The notes under the pieces: model-generated
What the model was told of the DNA's origin: nothing
What the model saw: the letters and a program-made list of their open reading frames with translations, nothing else
Databases searched by the model: none
Shown here: one piece after another, positions 4,900 to 20,980 of the stretch
Layout: each line of letters opens with the position of its first letter
How positions within the stretch are numbered: the stretch's first letter is position 1
Position numbers and translations under genes: made by a program
Virus record (IMG/VR): IMGVR_UViG_3300043469_001135
Span: 1 to 20,980 of that record
DNA from: a virus
DNA length: 20,980 nucleotides
Strand: one strand, 5' to 3'

Positions 4900-5176
4900 A
4901 AAAATAACACCAGGAGACATTTATGCAGTTCATACTGGCACATATGCTGGTGAAATGCTAATATATATTAAGAGTGAAGCAGTAGATCATTGCTTTCTGT
5001 CTGTACCAAATATGGTTAATAGGATTATACCTAAAATTATATTTGATCATGGAAGGAACAATAATATACTTAGATATGTAGAAAGAGTTCCTGTGTATGT
5101 TCTCAAGACATCAACCGCACAATATGTAAAAAATGAAAAAACTAACAAGACTATTAATATCCCCTTATCTGCTTAA
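4889..5176 (+). CDS. Hypothetical protein, 95 aa, last gene of the clamp group
   Basis: A small basic protein that starts within the end of the previous gene (11-nt overlap). It appears mostly beta: KITPGDIYAVHTGTYAGEMLIYIK (residues 5-28) looks like a small barrel-type start, with a His/Cys pair (DHCFLSV) and a basic middle (IPKIIFDHGRNNN). No family is recognised. Its last 23 nt overlap the 3' end of the convergent homing endonuclease gene, so the end of this operon is the border of the endonuclease insertion. Confidence 0.68.
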   Translation: MASKKITPGDIYAVHTGTYAGEMLIYIKSEAVDHCFLSVPNMVNRIIPKIIFDHGRNNNILRYVERVPVYVLKTSTAQYVKNEKTNKTINIPLSA

Positions 5177-5789
5177 GTCTTAATTTATTTACACTCTTAC
5201 ACTCACTACTGCAGGTCTTTCTAACATATCCTCTATTTATACACCAGCGTGTATTGTATATAGCGCTATTACATATCAAACAAGCGCTGTATTCGCCTGT
5301 CATTAGCGTTGGAACTTTTTTACCTTGAATAGCTTTATTTATTTTTTCTTGATGTTCTTTAGTTCTTTTATATTTTTTAAGGCTTTTTGAAATTTTGTCT
5401 TTTGTCTCTAGTGAATGTTTTTTACCGAGTATTTGAAATCTTTGATGTTCTCTCTGTGCTTGAGTTTTTGGAACATTAACTATACCTTTAGTTCCCGTGG
5501 AAGTATTGTTTCTATTTAACCAACACTCACTTTTAACAATATTCATCCTCCTAATAACTTTTTCCTCCCACTTTATAGCTTCTTCAGAAGTTTTAAAGGT
5601 TCTACGAACTTCGATAATAGTAGGTTCCCCAAACTTCTCACGCATTTGCTTTACATACTTTGATGATGTAAAGTATTTTTTCCAAAAAGTAGCTGGGGTA
5701 GCATCACGACCGTATTTAACACCGTAATAATACTTGCCTTCTTTAGACCATCCTATAAGATAACAATAGGGAATATTGACTTGCTGCAT
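5154..5789 (-). CDS. Free-standing homing endonuclease, GIY-YIG-like with NUMOD3 and zinc-finger motifs
   Basis: A selfish nuclease that would cut a related phage genome lacking this gene and spread by repair. The N-terminal part has a GIY-YIG-like pattern, CYLIGW...YYYGVKYGR (residues 9-28), the usual Arg at 28, a candidate catalytic Glu in AIKWEEK (75 or 76), and a WLNRN end to the module (90-94). Residues 122-158, beginning GKKHSLETKDKISKSLK and repeating TKEHQEKINKA, are a NUMOD3-type DNA-binding motif. CxxC (170, 173), C183 and CxxxC (193, 197) suggest a small zinc finger. It is the only minus-strand gene between two plus-strand replication groups, and its 3' end overlaps its neighbour tail to tail. 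The first G of the motif is replaced (YLI), so activity is not certain. Confidence 0.8.
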   Translation of the reverse strand: MQQVNIPYCYLIGWSKEGKYYYGVKYGRDATPATFWKKYFTSSKYVKQMREKFGEPTIIEVRRTFKTSEEAIKWEEKVIRRMNIVKSECWLNRNNTSTGTKGIVNVPKTQAQREHQRFQILGKKHSLETKDKISKSLKKYKRTKEHQEKINKAIQGKKVPTLMTGEYSACLICNSAIYNTRWCINRGYVRKTCSSECKSVNKLRLKQIRGY

Positions 5790-8588: not shown

Positions 8589-8996
8589 ATGTTAAAGTTG
8601 ATCGGTGTATCTATCGGAATAACACTACTTGTTAGTTTTGGTATAGGGTTTGTACTAGCTGATATTATAGGGTTCTGGCAAGGTGTTGTTGGTTCAATTA
8701 TTGCTCAGTTTTTAGGATTTTATATGTATTCGTTAAAAAATACTGATTCTAATAAACCAGATTTAAGTGAAGAGATTATAAATCTGCAAACCATACCTAT
8801 TTCCTGTCCTTGCGGTAAGCATACCTTTCCTGCACCAGTGTTTTATAACACGGATAATTCTTTCCTATGCGAAAAATGCGGTAGTAGATTTAAGGTAGAG
8901 TTAAATCACGAAACTGTGCTGCTAACAGAGCCTTTAAACATTGCTAATGTCTTTACCCAATTAAAAGAGAAGGAACTTTCCGATAATAAGGTATGA
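8589..8996 (+). CDS. Small membrane protein with a C-terminal zinc ribbon
   Basis: Two hydrophobic segments (about residues 2-23 and 26-48), separated by a short turn (ADIIGFW follows the first), predict a helical hairpin in the membrane. A linker leads to a soluble part with CPC (73-75) and CEKC (94-97), spaced about 20 residues apart as in small zinc ribbons, plus the surrounding GKHTF and GSRFKV strands. The topology is uncertain; reducing conditions for the cysteines suggest the ribbon faces the cytoplasm. The family is not recognised, and I see no holin- or spanin-specific feature. The next gene begins in an ATGA overlap. Confidence 0.74.
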   Translation: MLKLIGVSIGITLLVSFGIGFVLADIIGFWQGVVGSIIAQFLGFYMYSLKNTDSNKPDLSEEIINLQTIPISCPCGKHTFPAPVFYNTDNSFLCEKCGSRFKVELNHETVLLTEPLNIANVFTQLKEKELSDNKV

Positions 8997-9235
8997 ACAA
9001 ATTCAAATTTGAACTTAAAAACGGGACAGTAAAAGAGATGGGTATTGATGAGCTTACAAGATGGGCTTGTCTTCTTGAAGGTATTGAGCAGGTATCAAAA
9101 AGATACGATGATCTAGGCGAGAGTATGGATACTGATGAATGGATTAAGCCACTAGCGTTTCAAAAGTATATTGAAGAGAGATTTCATTCAATGAAGCACG
9201 ATCTTACAGTCGAGGCGACATTAGGTAGAATTTAA
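8993..9235 (+). CDS. Hypothetical protein, 80 aa
   Basis: A short, mostly helical, charged protein starting in the stop of the membrane-protein gene (ATGA), with AAGG just upstream. It contains MGIDELTRWACLLEGIEQVSK (about residues 16-36) as a likely helix and AFQKYIEERFHSMKHDL (about 54-70) as a second. The TAA stop (9233-9235) overlaps the stop of the convergent structural gene. No family is recognised and no catalytic or metal-binding pattern is seen. Confidence 0.7.
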   Translation: MNKFKFELKNGTVKEMGIDELTRWACLLEGIEQVSKRYDDLGESMDTDEWIKPLAFQKYIEERFHSMKHDLTVEATLGRI

Positions 9236-10761
9236 CTAGGGCAAGTTACATTAAACTGAACGTAGGTATTTACACCTGCATAATTAAGAGGAGAATATGT
9301 AACGATATCTATAAAAGTATGCGTAGATAAAGATTTAGTAAACGATACTGTCCCTATTGCTGGACCTGATATAGCGGGATATCCTATACTCTTAAGGTAC
9401 GGTGTAAATACTTGATCTGTGCCTCTGTATCCTGAATCAACAATAGGTACAGCAGATAAAGATGTATTATCATTAGGGTAATATATTCCTAAAAATCTTG
9501 CAGCTACGTTATTACAATTATAATTTATTGTCATAGTACCTGTCTTACTACCTACTATAACGCGTGTAACGTATGTTACTGGTGAGCCTAGTATTCTAAC
9601 TGTTGGAACGATACCGCACTGAACAGTCTTATATATTTCGCAGGGTATATCAGGGTTCCGGTTAATAATAAAAGGAAGAACCGTGCCATACGTATCGTAC
9701 GCGTCTATAGTTGCATATAAAGCTTCACCCCAAGCATATCTATAATTAAGTGTTAATATATTTTTAGAAAATATATCATAATTAACATTATAAGTAGAAA
9801 GACCTATAACATCAGATAATCTGTTATAGTTATACAACGCTAGCGGGTATTTAAATCTCGTAGCCAGAAAATTACTGTTTGTATCCGGTGACATCAGAAT
9901 AGCTGTACTTATTCCAGATAATATACCAGCACCTTGAGGAGCAGATATGTTACTATATTGAGTAATAATGTTAAAACACTTTTTAGCTGGATCGAGATAA
10001 GCAGATAATGTAAAGGGGCTAAATGTTGATGATGTCTCAGACCCTAAGCCATACTCAATAGGGTTAGGATATGTGTCACCAAACGCGGGCAGAACCTCAT
10101 TGTTCTTGCATAATATTAGCTTAGTTAGAGGGTTAAACAGTCTATCTTCAGGTATATTGTATATAGTTGATGTAGTAGGTACATAGAACGTATTATATGA
10201 AGATGCAGGTGACCCTATCGTGTAGGGCATCATTTTAAATGGTGAGTAATCACGCTCAACGTATGACGACCAGTCAACCGACAATCTATACTCAAAATTA
10301 ACAGCCTGGTTAAAATTAACCGTTACAGGATTTGTTAATACAGCTCTAGAAAACGCGCTTGATGTTGTATCGTTATATGGTTTTATAGAAAATTCCTTTA
10401 TAGTTTCTGTTACCTTATTAGTTACAGGGGTAGTAAAGGATACATAGTATGTTCTAAGATTAGGGTATGTACTGTTGTATATTACTTGGAAGTTATCACG
10501 TAATACATTTGCTAGTACAGAATTACCTGAAGGTGAAACTACTCCTGATAACGTGTAGTTTAGTGTAGTGGCAAACTTGTCGCTTATACCTAAATCTAAA
10601 AAATTTAATATATCAGAAAAGGGCAATGTAGCTAATCTTATAAGACCGCCTGATAAAATAGTATTCTTACACCACCCGGAGTCTGATACTATAGTATCTT
10701 TCTCTAAAACCTTTATGCGATATTCTCCACATAAATTAATATTAGCATCAACAACGCTCAT
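9232..10761 (-). CDS. Putative tail-fibre or virion structural protein, 509 aa
   Basis: A beta-rich, Ser/Thr/Asn/Tyr-rich protein, typical of phage fibre or decoration proteins. Residues 12-45, with GEYRIKVL, then SGWCKNTILSGGLIRLA, resemble the opening domain found in many phage tail proteins (a short strand pair, then a W/F...N.I...G motif). The rest lacks recognisable motifs. A C-terminal segment starting VTRVIVGSKTGTMTINYN (about 397-414) and running to the end looks like a separate small beta domain. CATAAATA (10768-10775) ends 6 nt before the ATG, so it probably has its own late promoter. The stop overlaps the opposing gene's stop (TTAA). No enzymatic residues are seen. Confidence 0.72.
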   Translation of the reverse strand: MSVVDANINLCGEYRIKVLEKDTIVSDSGWCKNTILSGGLIRLATLPFSDILNFLDLGISDKFATTLNYTLSGVVSPSGNSVLANVLRDNFQVIYNSTYPNLRTYYVSFTTPVTNKVTETIKEFSIKPYNDTTSSAFSRAVLTNPVTVNFNQAVNFEYRLSVDWSSYVERDYSPFKMMPYTIGSPASSYNTFYVPTTSTIYNIPEDRLFNPLTKLILCKNNEVLPAFGDTYPNPIEYGLGSETSSTFSPFTLSAYLDPAKKCFNIITQYSNISAPQGAGILSGISTAILMSPDTNSNFLATRFKYPLALYNYNRLSDVIGLSTYNVNYDIFSKNILTLNYRYAWGEALYATIDAYDTYGTVLPFIINRNPDIPCEIYKTVQCGIVPTVRILGSPVTYVTRVIVGSKTGTMTINYNCNNVAARFLGIYYPNDNTSLSAVPIVDSGYRGTDQVFTPYLKSIGYPAISGPAIGTVSFTKSLSTHTFIDIVTYSPLNYAGVNTYVQFNVTCPS

Positions 10762-10767
10762 TACTTA

Positions 10768-10775
10768 TATTTATG
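10768..10775 (-). promoter_or_regulatory. Late promoter box CATAAATA
   Basis: Minus-strand CATAAATA, one base from the T4 late consensus, ends 6 nt before the ATG of the 509-aa structural gene, in the 34-nt gap behind the beta-propeller gene. No Shine-Dalgarno sequence lies between box and ATG. Confidence 0.55.
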
Positions 10776-10795
10776 TTGCGAAATAATATTGCTAG

Positions 10796-12967
10796 TTAAG
10801 ATACTACAAATGTAATATTGTATGGCTCTTGTAAAACTCTCTCAGAATTAAGACTATTTTTATAGTAAAACGTGTTATATAATATTGTATATTCTCCACT
10901 TGTAGTAAATTTACGAAAATTAATCGCACCGCTTTGAGATCCATATGATCCATCAGGTAAATAAAAAGGAGATTCAAATAGAGCCTCAGTTAATACACCG
11001 TCAGACCATAGTGTTGTGGCTTTATAGGCTTCAAATGCAGAGAGGGTGAGTAGGGGATATACTGGTAGATTATAAACTTGAGCTCGACTTAATTTATCAA
11101 CACCTGCATCGTTAGGTTCTCCTATTGCTATTCTATCACCTAATTTATTTAGAGAAGTACTGTGTCCGAAGAATTTATAATTATCTCCAGTACCGCTTAA
11201 GGGCTCGATAATTGAACGCCAGTCTATACCATTAAACTCATACACATATACAATCCCTGTATCATTAACACCGCCTAAAATATCTCCTATTGCAAGACGA
11301 TCACCTACACAATTTAAAGAAACTGAGTGTCCAAACCCTCCAGTATATATTAATGGTGAGATAGGATTTCCTAGATAATTCCATTCACCTTCGTTCTGTT
11401 TAAAAACACATACAGCATCAGCACCATCTGACGTAGCAATTACGTCACCGGTTGAATTTATTGATAAACTTTCACCTATAAAAATTGTACCAGATGGATC
11501 TATAATGTCCGCAGTCTTATTCCATTGCACTCCATTCCATTCATAGACTCTAATAACACCATTTGCACCACTTAAGGAATCTTCTCCTTCGCATGCATAT
11601 GCAATAATATTACCTATTGAGTTTATAGCTACTCTATGCGTGGTTCCGGTATACATCTCGCCGTTTATGGTCTGACCTATTTGCATCCATTCTAATCCAT
11701 CATATTCAAAAACTCTAATGGTACTTACACCATCTCCATTCGCTCCATACGGCTCAGCAATAACTATACGATCACCTACAGAATTTAATTGTATTGATTC
11801 ACCTGAATCATCATCTATGATTAAACCTCTTATAGTAGACCCCAGCTGTATCCATTGACTTCCATTCCATTCATATATTTTAGTTCCACCTCTACTATCA
11901 AAGACAGCTCCGCATTGATTATGATACCCAAACGCTATACGGCTGCCGTTGTAGTTCATTGATACACTTACACCGAAAAAATCACACGCATCAACTCCAT
12001 AGAGCGACTGACCCATCTGCACCCATGAAGAATTAACTAGCTCATAAGCTCTCACGACACCTTCATCGTTACCTAAACCTCCTATACCTCCTACCACTAT
12101 TCTATTTCCTGCGTCATTTATATCTATTGAATATCCAATCATTTCATTAAAACCTACATTAGAAATACTATTACCTAATTGCAGTGCACTTAAAGAAAAG
12201 TCCTTATCTATATATAAAAGCTCTTTAGGGTCATATTGCGTTATATCTCTTGGCTGATCTACAACATATGTCGTTTCGTTACGTTTAAAAGGAATATAAT
12301 CACCCTTTAAATCTTCTCCACCTAAGCGAATACTAAACATATCCCATACTATTTTTTTAGTTTTATAGATGTTAATAAGTTCAGATGAAAGCCAAAAAAC
12401 ATAAGAAGAAGTAAACTCTATAGGTAAATAATAATTAAGTGTTATTATATCATTAGGAGATGTTGTTCTTCTATATGAACCAACAGGTAAGAGGTCTATA
12501 CTGGTACCGCTAAGCATTTTATTGTATCTAGCAGTACTGCTCAATACGGTCCAATTAGATATTAAGCTACCACTACTTGTAATATTGAAAGTGTCGTTTT
12601 TGTAAGTGAAATCATCCGTTCTGTCAAGAACAACGCCGCGATTTTGTATTAATAATTGATAGCCAAAATTAAATACATCATAGCCAGTAGCTAAATTTAC
12701 GCAGGTTGTTGTAGAGCTTAAATTTACTGATACCGCTGATCCCTCTGATAGATAATTATCAAGCACTATGCTATCCTCACCATCTATTTCTGTTGGAGGA
12801 TAGGCTATAGATGCTGGTGGTGGCGAATATCCACCATCTCTTGTTTGACTAGTCTGTGGATTAAGAGTGCCATTTGTTAATGCAGTTTCATCTATATTAA
12901 AGCACGCACTACCACTGCATAAATTATCATTGTTATTAAAAGAATATGCACTTAAATTATTAATCAT
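10796..12967 (-). CDS. Putative adhesin with a seven-repeat FG-GAP-like beta-propeller
   Basis: Residues 1-260 are a beta-rich, Ser/Thr/Asn-rich region of unknown type with a Pro-rich stretch (YSPPPASIAYPPTE, 47-60). Residues 262-634 are seven repeats of about 47-57 residues following W.QlG..i.G......G.SvslN..GDriaig......G.vrVYE.NG (for example GDRIVIAEP 398-406, GDRLAIGD 555-562, GDRIAIGEP 610-618). Seven repeats suit a closed seven-bladed propeller. Residues 635-723 form a C-terminal beta domain. The likely job is binding the host surface. It starts in a TAATG overlap with the lectin-like gene, with a strong AAGGAG 7 nt upstream. FG-GAP repeats of this kind occur in bacterial surface proteins; the receptor is unknown. 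Confidence 0.8.
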   Translation of the reverse strand: MINNLSAYSFNNNDNLCSGSACFNIDETALTNGTLNPQTSQTRDGGYSPPPASIAYPPTEIDGEDSIVLDNYLSEGSAVSVNLSSTTTCVNLATGYDVFNFGYQLLIQNRGVVLDRTDDFTYKNDTFNITSSGSLISNWTVLSSTARYNKMLSGTSIDLLPVGSYRRTTSPNDIITLNYYLPIEFTSSYVFWLSSELINIYKTKKIVWDMFSIRLGGEDLKGDYIPFKRNETTYVVDQPRDITQYDPKELLYIDKDFSLSALQLGNSISNVGFNEMIGYSIDINDAGNRIVVGGIGGLGNDEGVVRAYELVNSSWVQMGQSLYGVDACDFFGVSVSMNYNGSRIAFGYHNQCGAVFDSRGGTKIYEWNGSQWIQLGSTIRGLIIDDDSGESIQLNSVGDRIVIAEPYGANGDGVSTIRVFEYDGLEWMQIGQTINGEMYTGTTHRVAINSIGNIIAYACEGEDSLSGANGVIRVYEWNGVQWNKTADIIDPSGTIFIGESLSINSTGDVIATSDGADAVCVFKQNEGEWNYLGNPISPLIYTGGFGHSVSLNCVGDRLAIGDILGGVNDTGIVYVYEFNGIDWRSIIEPLSGTGDNYKFFGHSTSLNKLGDRIAIGEPNDAGVDKLSRAQVYNLPVYPLLTLSAFEAYKATTLWSDGVLTEALFESPFYLPDGSYGSQSGAINFRKFTTSGEYTILYNTFYYKNSLNSERVLQEPYNITFVVS
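11066..12184 (-). repeat. Seven tandem propeller repeats (about 47-57 codons each)
   Basis: Repeats cover residues about 262-317, 318-374, 375-429, 430-484, 485-531, 532-585 and 586-634. Each ends with an aromatic YEWNG.W-type strand, and the next begins with LG..I. Repeat 5 is shorter and has lost most of the loop between GD and VCVF. The repeats are diverged at the DNA level, so they are old rather than recent tandem duplications. Confidence 0.78.
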
Positions 12968-13668
12968 TAAGCTGCTCCTTCTGTATGTATGTTTTTAACA
13001 AATATATTCCCTATAGCTGCTGGTGATATGGAACTTATTGGAGTTACAAAAGAAATACCGGGGTAATAGGTTATACCTGGATTTACTGGAATGTTTATTT
13101 CTCGCTGCAATATTGGTTGAAACTCTTCGTTAGGATTATTTCTATAATCAATATATAGTGTTCTACCTACATTGCCTAATCTTACCCTAACAGTTTTATA
13201 TATTTCAGCGCTTTCAACAATAGAAAATGTACTGTTAAGGGATGAAAGAGGCTGATGGTAAGCGTATTGATTATAAGAGTAACGTGGTGATGAGCTCCTT
13301 ATTGTTACGGAGTTTTTCTCTACTTTTGTTGCATTTATACCATCTCTTACAGTATAAGAACCTATAAAAGCGGAAGCTGCAAATAAACCAGTGGTGTCGA
13401 AGCCAACTCCTATTGCTGCACCTATAATACCTGGTTTAATATATGAATAATTAACATCACCGCTGGATAATCCAGAATATCCTAAATCTATACCCCCACT
13501 ACCTCCATTTAATCCATATTTTGTTAAAAATACAGTAAATCCTGCTTCAGTATTTTGATTACCGCTTATTGCATAATCAAATGACCAAACAATATCATAA
13601 TATGGTGAAAAAGGAGTTTTAGAAGCAAAGTTAATTGCTTTAGCTGATGATAGCGTAGGATACTGCAC
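12967..13668 (-). CDS. Putative lectin-like (L-type/concanavalin fold) tail protein, 233 aa
   Basis: The strand pattern looks like a jelly-roll lectin: INFASKTPFSPYYDIVWSFDY (residues 12-32), EAGFTVFLTKYG (41-52), a glycine-rich turn, GAAIGVGFDTTGLF (83-96), then VRVRLGNVGRTLYIDYR (about 166-182), each typical of legume-lectin/LamG-type sandwiches. Lectin metal-ligand residues cannot be assigned by eye. The reading frame opens with GTG at 13668; an in-frame TGA lies 9 nt upstream, and there is no obvious ribosome binding site. The upstream frame overlaps it by 103 nt. It shares an operon with the propeller gene (TAATG overlap). The likely role is carbohydrate binding at a fibre tip. Confidence 0.68.
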   Translation of the reverse strand: MQYPTLSSAKAINFASKTPFSPYYDIVWSFDYAISGNQNTEAGFTVFLTKYGLNGGSGGIDLGYSGLSSGDVNYSYIKPGIIGAAIGVGFDTTGLFAASAFIGSYTVRDGINATKVEKNSVTIRSSSPRYSYNQYAYHQPLSSLNSTFSIVESAEIYKTVRVRLGNVGRTLYIDYRNNPNEEFQPILQREINIPVNPGITYYPGISFVTPISSISPAAIGNIFVKNIHTEGAA

Positions 13669-14028: not shown

Positions 14029-15723
14029 TTATTCTGTAAAGCCTACTATTCGAATAAAGCAGTTAGCTCCGATCTCCTGCGTTGTACCTCTTAAACCAAA
14101 GGTTAGCTGACCGGTGTTACTGGCACTAAGAGGTAGTGTAACCTGATTTGATGCGCAAACGTGATTACCACTACTTACTGATTTTAAATAATTTACTAAA
14201 TACTCATTAGTACCTAGTGTTTTTGAAGTTGACGTAGTTAAGAAAGATTTATCACTAGCAGCAGCAAACATACACTCTGTACCATTAGTTGATGAGGCCC
14301 AGCTATCTATTATAACCCCAGTAGCAGTACTAGGTAAGCTGTAACCTGTAGCTACTGAACCATTCATTGTTCCTCCATCAAAAGTTATATATCTTATTGC
14401 TGGGAAAACTGAAATATTAGTTGAAAAGGATGTATTACTCGGTACACCATTAAATAAAATTTCTACTGGTATAGTTAAAAACTTAGTAGTAGTTTCGTAA
14501 TTAACGAAAACAGTACTACCTACTGTATCGAGTAGACCAGCAGGTTCAGTCACCGGCTCACCTACAACTCTACCAAATTCATCAGTTATAACACCATCTC
14601 TAAACTCCCCACTTAACCCTGGCATAGCGCCATAAACTACAGTACCAGACAGAGGGTTAAACGCGCCTAATACCTGCGAGCCATTAACAGTAGCACATAA
14701 CGGATACGCTACAGTAGTAGAAACATTTATAACTTGATCAGGCTTAGCTTTAATAATATACAATGCGCCAGATGCACTTAACGCGCAGTTAGTTCCAGAT
14801 GCTATTGTGTATGTAGTAGATGTTGATGGGTTATTTTGAACGCCATAAAGTGTTCTATTAATATAATTTGGAACACTAAAGTTAGCTCCAGATCCTCCAT
14901 AAGTATACCCTATTACTGCAAACAACTCACTATAAAGAGCTGTTGTGACTGATTGACCATTACAGAGTAACCAGCCAATTGGTGCATTATTCGATGAGAT
15001 AAACGGCATTATTGAACCAACAGGTATTTGACCTGCCGTACTAGCTGAATAAAGAGTTGTAGGTGTAAACGCTGGCGCCCATGATAGATTACCGCTAGCA
15101 TCAATTTTTAAGTAGTTATCAGCTGCTAAACCGCCAGCTGGCCAGTTATAGGATACACCATTAAATGCAGTACCTGCTGGGAGCTGTAAATACGGCTCAC
15201 TAAATGAGCTTATACTATTAGTAAATACAGCTGTAGTAGATACACCTATCTTATTATTACCGTCAATTACAAGGCTGTTTCCTATAGCATTGGAAGAAAT
15301 ATCTCCTGCTGATAAAGACCCTACAGCAATACCATTAGTTGATGAAATTGTTATAGTGCCGTCAGCAGCAGTATAAACACCGCCGATTTCACTCCAGCTA
15401 CTTAAAAGAGCATACGACCCGCTGGTAAGTGTGTATATCTTTTTATTATCTGTATCGTAAGCTATATCACCAAATACAGCAGTATTAAGCGTAGTTACAT
15501 CCGCAGCACTGCCTACAAATCTACCACCTCCGCTACTTTGTATACCGCCGCCTATTGCAATGCCGCCTGGAGTTGAGCCATCACCTACAAATAATCTCTT
15601 TGTGTCTGTAGTGTATCCTAATTCTCCCTCTGCTAAGATAACATTTTGTCTATCAGCATCTGTACCTCGTCTAACAAGAAGTTTTAAAAGAGTATTTTCA
15701 AATATTTCTATTTTTTTTGGCAT
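14029..15723 (-). CDS. Tail-fibre protein with collar domain, 564 aa
   Basis: Residues 17-60, VRRGTDADRQN...GELGYTTDTKRLFVGDG, are the trimeric fibre-attachment motif found at the N terminus of many phage fibre proteins. Residues about 70-170 are a beta-rich section paralogous to the neighbouring fibre gene. Residues 234-295 are a phage tail-collar domain: VGSIMPF, then APIGWLLCNGQSV, then YSELFAVIGYTYGGSGANFSVPNY in pieces, with the usual G-W-LLCNG core. The C-terminal 270 residues are Ser/Thr/Gly-rich and variable, probably the receptor-binding tip. It starts 3 nt after the stop of the paralogue. In T4-like phages such proteins are short or long tail-fibre subunits. Confidence 0.86.
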   Translation of the reverse strand: MPKKIEIFENTLLKLLVRRGTDADRQNVILAEGELGYTTDTKRLFVGDGSTPGGIAIGGGIQSSGGGRFVGSAADVTTLNTAVFGDIAYDTDNKKIYTLTSGSYALLSSWSEIGGVYTAADGTITISSTNGIAVGSLSAGDISSNAIGNSLVIDGNNKIGVSTTAVFTNSISSFSEPYLQLPAGTAFNGVSYNWPAGGLAADNYLKIDASGNLSWAPAFTPTTLYSASTAGQIPVGSIMPFISSNNAPIGWLLCNGQSVTTALYSELFAVIGYTYGGSGANFSVPNYINRTLYGVQNNPSTSTTYTIASGTNCALSASGALYIIKAKPDQVINVSTTVAYPLCATVNGSQVLGAFNPLSGTVVYGAMPGLSGEFRDGVITDEFGRVVGEPVTEPAGLLDTVGSTVFVNYETTTKFLTIPVEILFNGVPSNTSFSTNISVFPAIRYITFDGGTMNGSVATGYSLPSTATGVIIDSWASSTNGTECMFAAASDKSFLTTSTSKTLGTNEYLVNYLKSVSSGNHVCASNQVTLPLSASNTGQLTFGLRGTTQEIGANCFIRIVGFTE

Positions 15724-15726
15724 AAG

Positions 15727-16809
15727 TTATGTATATTTAAAGATAGGTATTGCAACTAAACCGAACTCTGCAGTATTTATACTCATAAATCCAGCTGATG
15801 TTAAATTTATATTAACCGTTCTACCGACCGGATTACCTGAAACGCCTGTTACTGTGGATTGATTAGTAAAACGTGATTGTAAAGGAAAACCATTAAACGC
15901 AGATAGATGTGAGTTATTTGGATGATTACCTGTTAGTGCGCGAGTTATAATAGAGGTTGTACCCGTTATTTGACCGTTATTATTGTATGTTATATTAGAA
16001 AATGTAGTTGTAGCACCGGCAACCACCGGAGTTATACTAAGTTGGTTACTATTTAAAGTTAAGGAAGCATCTACTGTCTGAAAGGTTGCTTCTAGCTTAT
16101 TATCTGTATCTATAAACAAACCAGGCCCAATAGTATTAGCACTTAAAGAAGCTGCATTTACTATACCGAACGGTAGAGCTGTTAGTGTTAATACTCCGGA
16201 ATTATAACCAAAACTAGATGGTGTAGCGTTAATAGATAGCGTCGTACCGTCACCTCCATGTAAGCCGTTACCTAGAGCTTTATTGCTTATATTAGCGGCA
16301 CTTATGGTACCTACTGTTAATCTATTACTTACAATACGCACAGTTGTGCTATCTACGTTAGAAGAAAGACCATTAGTCGCAGTAGCTATAATAGCACCTT
16401 GATTAAATGCAGCAGTTGAAGCAAATTTAGTACCGGTGATACCATTATCCTTAATAACAAGAGTATTACCTCCGTTGTATTGTATGGTTGTATTATCTAC
16501 TTTTGTACCTATAAACGCCCATGAGCTTAATGAAGTGTAGTTAGTACCTGTGAGCTGATATAGTAGTGAGCTAACACTTACTATGTCGTATAAAGCTGCT
16601 CCTGTAATTCCTGTAAGTGAATTAACAGTAGCGAGAGGCTTAAGCATTACCGCACCGACGGGACCACCTCCAATTGTAATACCATCACCTACATACAGCC
16701 TATTTGTATCTGTAGTGTATCCCAACTCTCCCTGTTCGAGGATAATGGTACGTCTTTGAGCATCCGTACCACGCCTTACTTTAAGTTTTATAATAGAAAT
16801 GTCAGGCAT
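15727..16809 (-). CDS. Tail-fibre protein, 360 aa, paralogue of the collar-domain fibre
   Basis: The N-terminal motif VRRGTDAQRRTIILEQGELG...NRLYVGDG (11-43) matches that of the next gene, and similarity continues through a LSSW..IG strand (94-101 here, 107-114 there) and an IS..I....LGNGL-like segment. Then the sequence diverges; there is no collar domain. The C terminus (STVTGVSGNPVGRTVNINLTSAGF, ending IPIFKYT) is beta-rich. It leads the minus-strand fibre operon, with an exact TATAAATA 17 nt upstream. It probably forms part of the same fibre as its paralogue or a second fibre type. Confidence 0.83.
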   Translation of the reverse strand: MPDISIIKLKVRRGTDAQRRTIILEQGELGYTTDTNRLYVGDGITIGGGPVGAVMLKPLATVNSLTGITGAALYDIVSVSSLLYQLTGTNYTSLSSWAFIGTKVDNTTIQYNGGNTLVIKDNGITGTKFASTAAFNQGAIIATATNGLSSNVDSTTVRIVSNRLTVGTISAANISNKALGNGLHGGDGTTLSINATPSSFGYNSGVLTLTALPFGIVNAASLSANTIGPGLFIDTDNKLEATFQTVDASLTLNSNQLSITPVVAGATTTFSNITYNNNGQITGTTSIITRALTGNHPNNSHLSAFNGFPLQSRFTNQSTVTGVSGNPVGRTVNINLTSAGFMSINTAEFGLVAIPIFKYT

Positions 16810-16826: not shown

Positions 16827-16834
16827 TATTTATA
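16827..16834 (-). promoter_or_regulatory. Late promoter box TATAAATA of the fibre operon
   Basis: Exact T4 late consensus on the minus strand, 17 nt before the ATG at 16809. Unlike the other boxes here, it leaves room for an 11-12 nt leader, which contains the small inverted repeat AATAG-AGA-CTATT. Confidence 0.68.
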
Positions 16835-16897: not shown

Positions 16898-17725
16898 ATG
16901 GCTGTTGATATATACAACCTAAGAGACGATCAATATAATAATAATAGTGGTAGCGATATAAAGATGGTTGAAATAAATCCAATCGAGTCTTGTAATCGTA
17001 GATGTTCTTTTTGTCCAAGATCAGATAGTAAAAAATATCCTAATACTAAAAATAAAATTTCATTTGAAACATGTAAAAATATATCTAGCCAATTAAAATC
17101 TATTAATTTTACTGGTTGGGTAAGTTTTGTTGGTTTTGGGGAGCCATTACTTCACTCTAGTTTAGAAGAATGTATTAACATTATAAGACAAAATAATCCA
17201 TATATTAAATTTGAAGTTAATACAAATGGTGATTTTTTAACAACCAATAAAATTGAATCGTTATATAGGTGTGGATGTACTAATATAAATGTTAGTATGT
17301 ATGATAACGATATATCATACAATATTAATGAACTTAAAGGAGACATACCTATTAATATAGTTTTTAGACATCATTACGATAAAAATTTAAATTATAACTT
17401 AAATTTAATTAATAGAAGTAATATAACATATGGTAATACTATATTAAATTTAAATTCTCCTTGTTATTTGCCGTTTTATAAGCTTATGATAGACTGGAAT
17501 GGAGATATACTACCGTGTGCAAATGACTGGTCACGTACTATTAAATTTGGTAATATTAATACACAAAATATAAAGGAAATAATAAATGGCGATACTAGTG
17601 TTAAGTTTAAAACATCACTATGTACAGGTACAAGAATTCAAATGCCTTGTTCAAAATGTAATGCCTGCGGTACTATACGTGGTGAGAAAGAATTTAATAA
17701 CTTTAAACAGAATTATAGATTATAA
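16898..17725 (+). CDS. Radical SAM / SPASM-domain enzyme, 275 aa
   Basis: A [4Fe-4S] radical S-adenosylmethionine enzyme. CNRRCSFC (32-39) is the CxxxCxxC cluster site, VGFGEPLLH (78-86) supplies the GEP-type SAM-binding motif, and EVNTNGDFL (106-114) is the usual strand after it. The C-terminal cysteines 189, 207, 242, 251, 254 and 257, with IDWNGDILPC and CSKCNAC, form a SPASM-like domain holding extra clusters. The substrate cannot be read. Relatives with this short form often sit in lipopolysaccharide or secondary-metabolite clusters. It is alone on the plus strand and meets the aminotransferase tail to tail with 13 nt of overlap. The DNA appears more AT-rich than its neighbours, consistent with recent acquisition. 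Confidence 0.86.
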   Translation: MAVDIYNLRDDQYNNNSGSDIKMVEINPIESCNRRCSFCPRSDSKKYPNTKNKISFETCKNISSQLKSINFTGWVSFVGFGEPLLHSSLEECINIIRQNNPYIKFEVNTNGDFLTTNKIESLYRCGCTNINVSMYDNDISYNINELKGDIPINIVFRHHYDKNLNYNLNLINRSNITYGNTILNLNSPCYLPFYKLMIDWNGDILPCANDWSRTIKFGNINTQNIKEIINGDTSVKFKTSLCTGTRIQMPCSKCNACGTIRGEKEFNNFKQNYRL

Positions 17726-18624
17726 AATGTCTCAATATCGCATAGCGTCATTCTATAAAAATAATTATTGTTGAATACATATTCCTTAAGTTTATAATTC
17801 TTAAATATATTGGTGTTTCTTAACAAAATAAAATTACCTGCTTCAGCCACTATATTAACATTTAATAAGTTTCTAACCTGTTTAAATTCGCTGCTTATCT
17901 CCTTTAAGAGACTACTATCTTTCAATAGCTCCCTAACTAGTTTTAAAGTAATAGAATTGAGATACATAGGGCGAAACTGATTGAGTTTTTCGATAACAGC
18001 AACATTACCTGTTATACAGAAACCAAACCGCATACCAGTAAGTCCTCCCATCTTACTGAAGGTTCTTACAATTATTAAGTTCTCGGGTAATTGTGAAAGC
18101 GGTAAAGGAGCTGTAGGTGTAATATACGCTTCATCAATTACAACAAATTTATATTGGTTGCACAAAGCTAATATATCTTTACAATCTAATTTATAACCAG
18201 TAGGGTTGTGAGGTGAAACAAAATATAAACCACAATCTTTGGTATTGGTTATATGATGTAAGTCTATAGTAAAATTATTTGAAAAAATAAAATCTATATA
18301 TTTAATTTCTTTGTTGTGAGCAGAAACATAGTAAGGAAATAGCTCAAAGGTAGGTGATGTAGTTACCCAGGTACTGCAATCTAGAGTTTCTATTATTGAC
18401 CTCAAAACTTGTTCTGATCCGTTATCTGCATATATGTTTGAAGTTGAGATATTAAAAATTTTAGAAAGATCTAATATTACATCTATAGGAGACTTATATT
18501 GGATATAATCTACACTATTAATATCCGTTATATTTAAAAGTTTCCTTACGACTGATGGAACAATACATTCATTTCTGTCCAATCTAATAGTGTCGCTGTT
18601 TATTTCTAACGGAAATCTATTCAT
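17713..18624 (-). CDS. PLP-dependent aminotransferase, HisC/CobD-like (class I/II)
   Basis: Fold-type I PLP enzyme. Landmarks: NGSEQ (68-72) for phosphate binding, PHNPTG (138-143), DEAY (164-167), the Schiff-base lysine in TFSKMGG (K191), R199 in MRFGF, and a substrate-carboxylate arginine in FYRMTL (R291). The spacing resembles histidinol-phosphate aminotransferase and threonine-phosphate decarboxylase rather than the DegT sugar aminotransferases. At 303 aa it is about 50 shorter than usual HisC, and it ends about a dozen residues after R291, so the last helix may be missing. It overlaps the deacetylase gene by 8 nt. The substrate may be a phosphorylated amine or amino acid used to decorate a glycan, which is an inference from context. 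Confidence 0.84.
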   Translation of the reverse strand: MNRFPLEINSDTIRLDRNECIVPSVVRKLLNITDINSVDYIQYKSPIDVILDLSKIFNISTSNIYADNGSEQVLRSIIETLDCSTWVTTSPTFELFPYYVSAHNKEIKYIDFIFSNNFTIDLHHITNTKDCGLYFVSPHNPTGYKLDCKDILALCNQYKFVVIDEAYITPTAPLPLSQLPENLIIVRTFSKMGGLTGMRFGFCITGNVAVIEKLNQFRPMYLNSITLKLVRELLKDSSLLKEISSEFKQVRNLLNVNIVAEAGNFILLRNTNIFKNYKLKEYVFNNNYFYRMTLCDIETFYNL

Positions 18625-19252
18625 TTATTTTATATAGGCTTATATAAGCTTCAGCAAATTCTCTATTGCACTCCATTCCTCTAAATCTAGCATAAGTCTC
18701 TAAACCCACTTTACTTCTCGGGTTTGGATATTGTCTTAGTTCACTTTTATATAGAGATAGCATATCCCACTTATTCATTACATCGCCATAGTCTAACACC
18801 GTGTAGGTGTTAGCAAAAAAGCATTTTTTACCTTGTGTAGTAGATGAAGGTACTTCGTATACTAATAGTTCTTGAGGTTGTATCTGTTGAATTTTACGAA
18901 AAGCTATAAGACACGATTTATGAACGGCAGCATGGTCACTGTTTATATCACCATCAAACGGAATAAAAACTTTTTGTGGTTGTAGTTTAGTGTAAATTCT
19001 TTCTATTTGTTTAGTAAGATCAGAAGAAGACATTACATCTAGCCTCTCATCTACATTATTTAAAAGATGATACTTTATTTTATATTTTGTAGATATGTCA
19101 GTTATGTTCTTTATATTGTCTAGCCTATGTTCTTCTCTATGCGAAACAACAATCACGTTAATATTTTCTTTATCTGCATTTTTAGAAATATAACCTCCAC
19201 ATCCGAGAATCTCATCGTCTGCGTGCGGAGCAATTATTAAAGTTGTTTTCAT
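18617..19252 (-). CDS. PIG-L / LmbE-family N-acetylglucosaminyl deacetylase-like protein
   Basis: A metal-dependent deacetylase of GlcNAc-type sugars or of nucleotide- or lipid-linked derivatives. The family signature PHADDE (9-14) gives the metal ligands H10 and D13, and DHAAVH (106-111) gives the third, H111. D12 is the likely general base. Length (211 aa) fits the family. It is most likely cytoplasmic, because no signal peptide or membrane segment is seen. It lies between the SDR pair and the aminotransferase in one operon (8-nt overlap downstream, 13-nt gap upstream). Free amines made here could be used for acylation or amino-sugar linkage. The true substrate is unknown. Confidence 0.88.
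   Translation of the reverse strand: MKTTLIIAPHADDEILGCGGYISKNADKENINVIVVSHREEHRLDNIKNITDISTKYKIKYHLLNNVDERLDVMSSSDLTKQIERIYTKLQPQKVFIPFDGDINSDHAAVHKSCLIAFRKIQQIQPQELLVYEVPSSTTQGKKCFFANTYTVLDYGDVMNKWDMLSLYKSELRQYPNPRSKVGLETYARFRGMECNREFAEAYISLYKINE
18793..18829. other. Hairpin plus A/T hairpin inside the deacetylase gene
   Basis: CTAACACC (18793-18800), loop GTGTA and GGTGTTAG (18806-18813) form an 8-bp stem, followed on the plus strand by A6-GCA-T6 (18815-18829, with CA between). It resembles an intrinsic terminator for plus-strand (antisense) RNA, for example read-through from the radical SAM gene. It is in coding DNA and may be chance. Confidence 0.25.
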
Positions 19253-19265
19253 ATCTATGAAAATA

Positions 19266-20150
19266 TTATCGATCTATCTGCTTATGTATCCAGTCTCGTA
19301 AATCTATAGTTTGTTTGTGATCTAAAAGTTTAACACTTTTTTTAAGATCTAAAACTTTACCTTTAAACTCTTTAACATCACTCAACTCAACTACTACATT
19401 TAGATTTGGTATTTTTTCTTTAATATAATTAACTATCTGTAATAATGATATACCATTAAACCCATCTATATTAATTGTTTCGTTTTTTGTCTCGTCTAGT
19501 TTATCAGGTATACTAGAAATAGTACGAGCTAGATCTTTAACGTGTATAAAGTTTCTATAACCATTACTGGTAATTGTAATAATTTCACCATTTATAGCTT
19601 TTTGAATAAAAGTAGATACCGCTGTTCGTGGATTAGACCCTTCACCGTAAATAGTTCCATATCTACAAATGGTATAATCAAGATTATAGCTTTTTTGATA
19701 GCTTCTTATTAAGATCTCACCACAAATTTTAGTAGCAGAGTATATATTTGTACCGTTATTAGCATTCAAACATGTATCACCCTCATTTACAAAATCTTCT
19801 TCACATTCTGAATAAACCCAAGATGTGCTAGAAAATATTACCCTCTTCACTTTATTTTCAACGCATGCTTTTAATACATTATGTAATCCTATAATATTTT
19901 TTTCTATTGACTCGTAAGGATATTCGTAATTTTTTGTTGCTTCTGAAAGAGCAGCAAACATATAAACCACGTCTGTATCTTGAAGTATATTAGATAGACC
20001 CTCGCGGTCAGTGACTACATCGCAAAAAATAAAGTCTTTAATATTTTTTTCATTTTTTATATCAACAACTTTAACTTCGTGTTTGTTTTTAAGATATTCG
20101 TATGTGTTATGACCAATAAATCCGGATCCGCCTATCAATTTAATTTTCAT
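19266..20150 (-). CDS. NAD-dependent nucleotide-sugar epimerase/dehydratase (extended SDR)
   Basis: The Rossmann NAD site is GGSGFIG (7-13), followed by an acidic D30 at the end of the second strand, as in NAD(H)-preferring enzymes. FSSTSWVY (106-113) holds the catalytic serine/threonine, and YSATK (137-141) gives the YxxxK pair. CRYGTIYGEGSNPRTAVSTF, in parts near 162-181, is the substrate loop of the GalE/RmlB-like group. At 294 aa it is of normal length or slightly short. The start overlaps the end of the upstream RmlD-like gene by 11 nt. It probably converts a nucleotide-linked hexose by epimerisation or 4,6-dehydration; which one cannot be told by eye. Confidence 0.87.
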   Translation of the reverse strand: MKIKLIGGSGFIGHNTYEYLKNKHEVKVVDIKNEKNIKDFIFCDVVTDREGLSNILQDTDVVYMFAALSEATKNYEYPYESIEKNIIGLHNVLKACVENKVKRVIFSSTSWVYSECEEDFVNEGDTCLNANNGTNIYSATKICGEILIRSYQKSYNLDYTICRYGTIYGEGSNPRTAVSTFIQKAINGEIITITSNGYRNFIHVKDLARTISSIPDKLDETKNETINIDGFNGISLLQIVNYIKEKIPNLNVVVELSDVKEFKGKVLDLKKSVKLLDHKQTIDLRDWIHKQIDR

Positions 20151-20961
20151 ATATAAAATTTCGTTGCTCGTAAATCATTTCTTCAAGCGTAGGTACCTGA
20201 ATCTTATTATATACTGTGGTTAGGCTTCTATCAAGGGTATTTTCTATTAAAGTACCGCATATTTCAGTTGCTTGTGTAGGTATTATTTTGAGATTAAGAT
20301 TATATATTGAATCTATAATGCTTAATATTTCATATTTTGAAACCACTTTATCAGAATATACATGTCTAACTCCCGACCAGAACGAAACTCCGTCGTCGCG
20401 TAGCATCTTTTCAATAATTTTAGCTATTTCCAATCCCGTTACCCCGTTCCACAAACAGTTAGTATATCCTGTTACCGACTTATTAGCGTTTTTTAATGCA
20501 AATTCTAATAATCCTATCTTATTGTAGAGCTCTTCTCCTATAAAACTTAATCTCATTACTGTTGTTTGTAAGTCGGTGTGTGTTTTCGTGATACCATAAA
20601 TATCTTCTGCATCGCATATATCTTGCTCTGAATAATTACCTCTATCACCTTTAAACACGCAGTCTGATGAAAAATTAATTAGCTCGCACCCAACCTCGAG
20701 GGCTAGTTTATCGAGAGTTAGTGGAAAAGACTTATTTACAATAGTAGCCTCCTCTTTAGATTTTATTCGAGGCTTAAGCAAGCCTATACAATTTATTATT
20801 ATATCTTTTGGAGAAATATTCTCAGTAAATTTTTGTTTATTAAAAGAAGTCGCATTTAAATCATCACGTGTATATGTCTTTATAGTATATTTTTTTTGTC
20901 TTAGATACTTAGATATGCAACATCCAAGCATTCCATTGGATCCTAATACATGAACTATCAT
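20140..20961 (-). CDS. dTDP-4-dehydrorhamnose reductase-like enzyme (RmlD family)
   Basis: SDR of the RmlD/RfbD type, which reduces a 4-keto nucleotide sugar. GSNGMLG (7-13) is the nucleotide-binding loop, as in RmlD's G.nGqlG. NCIG (57-60) and INFSSDCVFKGDRGNYSE (95-112) carry the S-S/T-D-YVF-D-G pattern typical of the family, and YGITK (122-126) is the catalytic YxxxK. It is 273 aa, a normal length being about 290. ATG 20961 is preceded by a purine-rich AGAGAAG stretch. It is the first visible gene of the sugar operon; further genes may lie beyond the window edge. The keto-sugar would come from the SDR downstream. Confidence 0.85.
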   Translation of the reverse strand: MIVHVLGSNGMLGCCISKYLRQKKYTIKTYTRDDLNATSFNKQKFTENISPKDIIINCIGLLKPRIKSKEEATIVNKSFPLTLDKLALEVGCELINFSSDCVFKGDRGNYSEQDICDAEDIYGITKTHTDLQTTVMRLSFIGEELYNKIGLLEFALKNANKSVTGYTNCLWNGVTGLEIAKIIEKMLRDDGVSFWSGVRHVYSDKVVSKYEILSIIDSIYNLNLKIIPTQATEICGTLIENTLDRSLTTVYNKIQVPTLEEMIYEQRNFIYEN

Positions 20962-20980
20962 TTTTATACTTCTCTCAATA

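Follow-up and report, generated by a model that had tools for sequence, protein, structure and literature searches.

The DNA analyzed here comprises positions 1-20,980 of the IMG/VR virus record IMGVR_UViG_3300043469_001135, and this whole stretch of 20,980 nucleotides is referred to below as the window. On its minus strand, within a tail-fibre module recognized by Pfam matches and synteny, lies a gene for a protein (P0001) that harbors a predicted beta-propeller and overlaps the preceding gene (TTAATG). The genes of the module and the parts of P0001 are the following.

9232..10761 (-), downstream tail-module gene; homologues are 337-1176 aa long and conserved mainly in their first part
10796..12967 (-), propeller gene (P0001, 723 aa); in order domain B, an unmatched segment (residues 181-258), the propeller and an unmatched C-terminal segment (638-723)
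11057..12193 (-), seven-bladed beta-propeller, residues 259-637, from AlphaFold2 and an integrin-alpha fold match
11066..11170 (-), blade 7 repeat, residues 600-634, three strands only (repeat alignment, HMM, predicted structure)
11171..11335 (-), blade 6 repeat, residues 545-599 (this one and blades 1-4 by repeat alignment and leave-one-out HMM)
11336..11479 (-), blade 5 repeat, residues 497-544, with a short loop between strands 2 and 3 (repeat alignment, HMM, predicted structure)
11480..11641 (-), blade 4 repeat, residues 443-496
11642..11806 (-), blade 3 repeat, residues 388-442
11807..11977 (-), blade 2 repeat, residues 331-387
11978..12139 (-), blade 1 repeat, residues 277-330
12161..12184 (-), closing strand (residues 262-269), which completes blade 7 as its fourth strand (DSSP strand; the last repeat has three strands only)
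12425..12892 (-), domain B, about residues 26-181, common to relatives, in which it ends the protein (alignment and HMM)
12967..13668 (-), domain A gene, 233 aa; in 14 of 18 relatives it forms a single ORF with domain B
14029..15723 (-), fibre-type protein with Mtd_N (PF18454, E 3.6e-13) and phage tail Collar (PF07484, E 4.2e-16)
15727..16809 (-), fibre-type protein with Mtd_N (PF18454, E 6.2e-12)

The span 11066-12184 (-), which corresponds to residues 262-634 of P0001, had been described in a first-pass annotation of this DNA as seven FG-GAP-like repeats, and two sequence tests bear this out. The mean pairwise local alignment score among the repeats is 63.8, against 22.4 +/- 1.0 (largest 25.6) in 200 within-repeat shuffles, and an HMM built from six of the repeats recovers the omitted one in 7/7 cases, with i-Evalues between 4.2e-7 (repeat 5, the weakest) and 8.5e-17 (repeat 3, the strongest). 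Since all seven repeats are found again when left out, the count of seven is no artefact of a single alignment. Full repeats number six, at 48-57 aa; the seventh is a stub of about 34 aa. The AlphaFold2 prediction, made from an alignment of P0001 with 23 relatives (24 sequences, picked from 33 non-redundant ones), models residues 259-637 with ten-residue blocks mostly at pLDDT 72-98 and loop dips to 58, and places 28 strands in this region: six four-strand blades, a three-strand seventh, and the N-terminal strand 262-269. This strand fills the fourth position of blade 7 and the blade count of P0001 is thus exactly seven.

Residues 259-637 are accordingly predicted to be a closed seven-bladed propeller, as the first-pass annotation had expected, with the repeats and the ring closure of the model in agreement. 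The beta domains that it had placed on either side of the propeller are not confirmed, as the flanks (residues 1-241 and 657-723) are modelled at pLDDT below 50 except for single residues; domain B folded separately reaches a mean pLDDT of 35.7 and no fold could be assigned to it. Repeat 5, likewise said to be shortened, is indeed the shortest full repeat (48 aa vs 54-57 aa). The further suggestion that it marks a distinct binding face finds no support in the family: in the 66 proteins that have exactly seven repeats, P0001 included, the shortest of blades 1-6 is blade 1 in 18, blade 2 in 12, blade 3 in 8, blade 4 in 9, blade 5 in 12 and blade 6 in 7. Blade 5 is not singled out and we do not regard it as a special face.

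Comparison of the predicted propeller with the PDB (971 chains aligned) gave integrin alpha chains as the best 18 matches listed (Z 34.3 to 33.0), the top one with an rmsd of 3.4 over 350 residues at 14% identity (Z 34.3). CylK (Z 33.0) and Ciao1 (Z 32.7) are close behind in the ranking; as these are nearly as close, the fold is that of a seven-bladed propeller in general, and a kinship with integrins would rest on sequence. The family profile of 24 sequences matches integrin alpha-M with an E-value of 3.1e-10, and P0001 alone has 0 matches to solved chains at E <= 1. Integrin alpha propellers possess calcium-binding D-x-[DN]-x-[DN]-G loops in their later blades; this calcium-type motif has 0 matches in P0001. 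A library of predicted viral structures returned 100 matches at E 0.001, of which those listed are mostly from giant viruses and some from phages. The phage propellers phi11 Gp45 and phiKZ gp131C are not among the best 50 structural matches listed, which excludes nothing.

Database searches with P0001 itself returned no match to FG-GAP_2 (PF14312) at E <= 1 in Pfam, where a chance-level DUF was the only hit, a weak lectin-named match (E 0.036) as the only one in NCBIfam, a weak unnamed match (E 0.0026) in PHROG, and none among phage records at E 1e-3. All nine of the relatives scanned (chosen from 45) reach the gathering score of Pfam FG-GAP_2. Judged by these profiles, P0001 is a relative of FG-GAP_2 that is not filed as a member, and proteins of this kind are already known from tailed phages, giant viruses and secreted bacterial proteins. 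A family-typical relative used as query matched 19 phage records, including Vibrio phage nt-1, the cyanophages S-MbCM6 and S-TIM5 with its kin, Sinorhizobium phage Phosso and Agrobacterium phage Atu_ph07. The annotation of S-TIM5 and of S-MbCM6 places their copies among the virion structural proteins; the S-TIM5 gene adjoins thymidylate synthase, and that of nt-1 lies among hypotheticals beside a nicotinamide phosphoribosyl transferase, outside any tail cluster. Synechococcus phage RN05-S was discarded as a homologue, as its match had an E-value of 5 and its protein showed no such repeats on reading.

Searches of viral contigs with small alignments yielded 32 and 11 loci, a set of 43 that includes near copies and in which L007 and L045 share one contig. 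Across 45 viral and phage loci besides P0001, seven repeats are found in 21, fourteen in 2 and twenty-one in 3, the rest having other repeat counts or being cut by contig ends. The very long proteins of L022, L023 (a near copy of L022) and L024 carry 21 or 14 FG-GAP repeats, that is, three or two propellers in a row, and those of L022 and L024 lie by neck genes (head-tail adaptor in both, head closure also in L024). Other relatives are found by a portal gene (L042), near terminase genes (L041), and after the tape measure (L002 / LR797314). L041 additionally encodes a distant homologue of domain A (E 3e-13), and both its 8727-9380 and 10328-11797 regions match the terminase large subunit and are separated by a further ORF, so that this gene is possibly split or interrupted. 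Six loci (L040, L041, L008, L009, L021 and L029) display five or six repeats with the short last repeat retained; these are either real five- or six-bladed rings or repeats collapsed in assembly.

The first-pass annotation had noted that such repeats are known from bacterial surface proteins, and kin of P0001 do occur in bacterial surface-type proteins as well as in other phages. Seven repeats are present in 49 of 79 bacterial loci, and 17 of the first 20 listed are from Bacteroidota by record title; the search was seeded with P0001, which biases the list toward its own relatives. Several of these bacterial proteins have a signal-peptide-like start with the closing strand directly after it, and a GIY-type tail that we take to resemble type IX secretion signals. 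A Bacteroidota ancestry of the propeller was considered from a quick tree that placed P0001 beside Bacteroidota rows (the careful search being unfinished), and was dropped. With P0001, which has the longest end branch, held with the other half of the tree the likelihood was higher (p-AU 0.715), and the tree is therefore uninformative on the origin of the propeller.

The tail module can be followed in related phages. The Collar fibre as query identified 23 loci, 18 of which (L130-L147) have the same module; the other five (L148-L152) match part of the fibre only and stand outside the comparison of gene order. Domains A and B are encoded in 18/18 of the module loci and synteny continues on both sides of the window gene. 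A domain B HMM, built from 10 of the 18 rows, matches all 18 relatives at E 1.4e-29 or better, and among the loci compared domain B is found in L130-L147 only. Peptide patterns brought up no relatives of the flanks, and the kin of domain B came instead through the neighbouring fibre gene. A and B form one ORF of 387-410 aa ending with B in 14 of the 18, L131, L132 and L142 encode B on its own (ORF of 156-157 aa), and in L130, the nearest relative (fibre 90% identical), B starts an ORF that is cut off by the contig end after 151 aa. Apart from this unreadable slot, the protein ends after B and the propeller is absent in 17/17 slots, which include near copies and represent 10 distinct phages by our grouping. 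P0001 is therefore a tail-module protein that has been extended at its C-terminus by the propeller. FG-GAP repeats do not rise above noise in the ORFs of the 18 loci (best 5.3 bits), and a profile search of the whole records of the relatives found a propeller in 0/18, a weak result as it had no positive control and the records are fragments. Peptide patterns, which reach close relatives only, found no second contig with the propeller extension.

What is new about P0001 is its locus, in which a protein of the tail module, encoded next to fibre genes, has gained a propeller. The homologues of the downstream gene (9232-10761) align to it over 358-522 residues, and Ig-type domains were found in two of seven scanned. 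The arrangement can be read as a putative adhesin locus with exchangeable ends. L132 and L142 exhibit another change in the slot, an extra 260-aa ORF (10956-11735) between the A and B genes that resembles part of the Collar fibre (36.9% over 122 aa). Third-position GC in P0001 is 0.20-0.22 in domain B, linker, propeller and C-terminus alike; the propeller equals its surroundings, and composition was given up as a sign of recent gain. Beyond the fibre genes, 16898-20979 of the window contains a radical SAM gene, a nucleotide-sugar epimerase-type gene and other cargo, part of which is shared by L130 and L141; in L131, L132, L133, L138, L140, L143, L145 and L146 this position by the fibres holds genes of ~1100 and ~650 aa instead.

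That the gene belongs to a late tail operon, as first annotated, is supported by the Mtd_N and Collar fibre genes upstream, the gene overlap and a late-promoter-like motif that stands ahead of many start codons in this phage group, with the following two instances in the module.

10768..10775 (-), CATAAATA, late-promoter-like motif upstream of gene 9232-10761, 14 nt from its start
16827..16834 (-), TATAAATA, late-promoter-like motif upstream of gene 15727-16809, 25 nt from its start

In the window and 11 relatives, 35 genes out of 179 have [TC]ATAAATA starting 8-30 nt ahead of their start codon, with about 1 expected, though the count is not blind, as it was made on the very sequences in which the pattern had first been noticed. 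The spacing is 13-15 nt in 29/36 cases (tail strand of the window and L130-L146). TATAAATA alone is not enriched over the whole window (6 vs 6.8 expected). We take TATAAATA to be the T4-type late promoter motif, and a T4-type late promoter is the obvious reading of [TC]ATAAATA, in which case the 13-15 nt spacing would give very short leaders. The window also encodes T4-type replication genes, namely a helicase, a single-strand binding protein, a recombination exonuclease and a primase (matches to phrog_19, phrog_224, phrog_107 and phrog_47), and the tblastn matches of the helicase include T4 gp41-like proteins at 33%. Within this replication block, a homing endonuclease-type gene (5154-5789 (-); phrog_314, E 1.9e-19) lies on the opposite strand. 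Shine-Dalgarno-like motifs are rare, with 2 in 19 window genes, 5 in 90 genes of six relatives (L131, L132, L138, L141, L143 and L145) and, similarly, 5 in 46 genes of ten Bacteroidota loci, in contrast to 8/16 in nt-1, 4/11 in S-TIM5, 7/11 in RN05-S and 11/17 in Vibrio/Grimontia loci. This rarity is a hint at the host and would fit Bacteroidota, a reading less secure than that of the tail adhesin.

Taking fold, family and locus together, we consider it probable that P0001 is a tail-borne adhesin, in which a tail protein of a T4-like phage has acquired an FG-GAP/integrin-alpha-type propeller that binds the host surface. Domain B would be the inherited part of the tail module and, by assumption, the anchor in the virion; the propeller, together with the unmatched linker and C-terminus, would have been added onto it and be displayed outward on the tail, and one face of the propeller disc may then bind a structure on the host surface. 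Against this reading stand the lack of matches of P0001 by itself to solved chains, Pfam families and phage records, the settings of the nt-1 and S-TIM5 copies, and the failure of the peptide patterns to bring up the extension on a second contig. The first-pass annotation had also proposed a phage adhesin, and the tail-module locus makes this likely, while its binding and its presence in the virion are what we infer.

Other roles for the propeller deserve consideration. It may serve the tail as a structural spacer or a decoration, in baseplate or fibre assembly, with neighbours such as the 9232-10761 product contacting the receptor. Structural propellers do exist in phage tails, as reported for the nozzle of SU10 (PMC9509320), and the homologues of the downstream gene are the more variable ones among relatives. 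However, as the propeller is missing from all 17 readable slots, tail assembly in this group does not depend on it, and we regard a purely structural role as unlikely. The gene might alternatively encode a non-virion protein, cellular or secreted, or be an assembly chimaera of a tail gene and a propeller gene; the extension is seen on no second contig, with the nearest relative (L130) stopping at residue 151, and the nt-1 copy lies outside any tail cluster. The reading frame is nevertheless open through both propeller junctions, third-position GC is uniform and synteny extends on both sides, which together render this alternative quite improbable. Many propellers are enzymes, and the structural matches include the alkylating enzyme CylK (Z 33.0), so that a putative depolymerase-like enzyme that cuts or modifies polysaccharide of the host surface could be envisaged. 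This we hold to be very improbable, given that the nine scanned relatives match FG-GAP_2 and that enzyme families exceed the cut-off in them only as chance-like short overlaps.

Returning to the tail-borne adhesin, a broader and rather unlikely proposal, which we offer tentatively, is that T4-like phages of Bacteroidota swap outward modules at this locus and that one of them has grafted an integrin-like propeller of a host-secreted type for host recognition. If this were true, FG-GAP propellers, whether of seven, fourteen or twenty-one repeats, would be a widespread and largely undescribed class of phage adhesins. Few cases of propellers as phage receptor-binding domains are known, and the locus offers a natural before/after pair: related phages share the tail protein but differ in whether it bears the propeller, so that the function of the module can be tested.

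In the open-licence literature of PubMed Central, no description of FG-GAP propellers as phage tail adhesins was found. The relevant excerpt of PMC4901313 describes the receptor-binding protein Gp45 of phi11 as a baseplate propeller closed by an N-terminal strand, with a proposed receptor site; phiKZ gp131C as seven-bladed and located at the baseplate periphery, with a receptor role proposed and unconfirmed; and PRD1 P2 as a further propeller. Going by description only, Gp45 resembles P0001 as a phage propeller closed by its N-terminal strand, but has five blades, forms a homotrimer and bears a helical stem; gp131C, also likened only through that excerpt, shares the seven blades. The FG-GAP proteins of S-TIM5, S-MbCM6 and nt-1 belong to the same repeat family and likewise occur in myoviruses, but those of S-TIM5 and nt-1 stand alone at about 400 aa, that of S-MbCM6 is part of a giant protein, and their neighbourhoods are unlike that of P0001. 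For a haptophyte virus, PMC11953307 lists an FG-GAP repeat protein among those identified in its virion proteome. The integrin alpha propeller is similar to P0001 in its seven blades and in the N-terminal strand that closes the last one, and differs in that P0001 shares only 14% identity with it and has no D-x-[DN]-x-[DN]-G loops. The FG-GAP_2 (PF14312) proteins match P0001 in repeat pattern, the count of seven, the short last repeat and the closing first strand, whereas P0001 falls below the Pfam model and is fused to a domain of the tail module.
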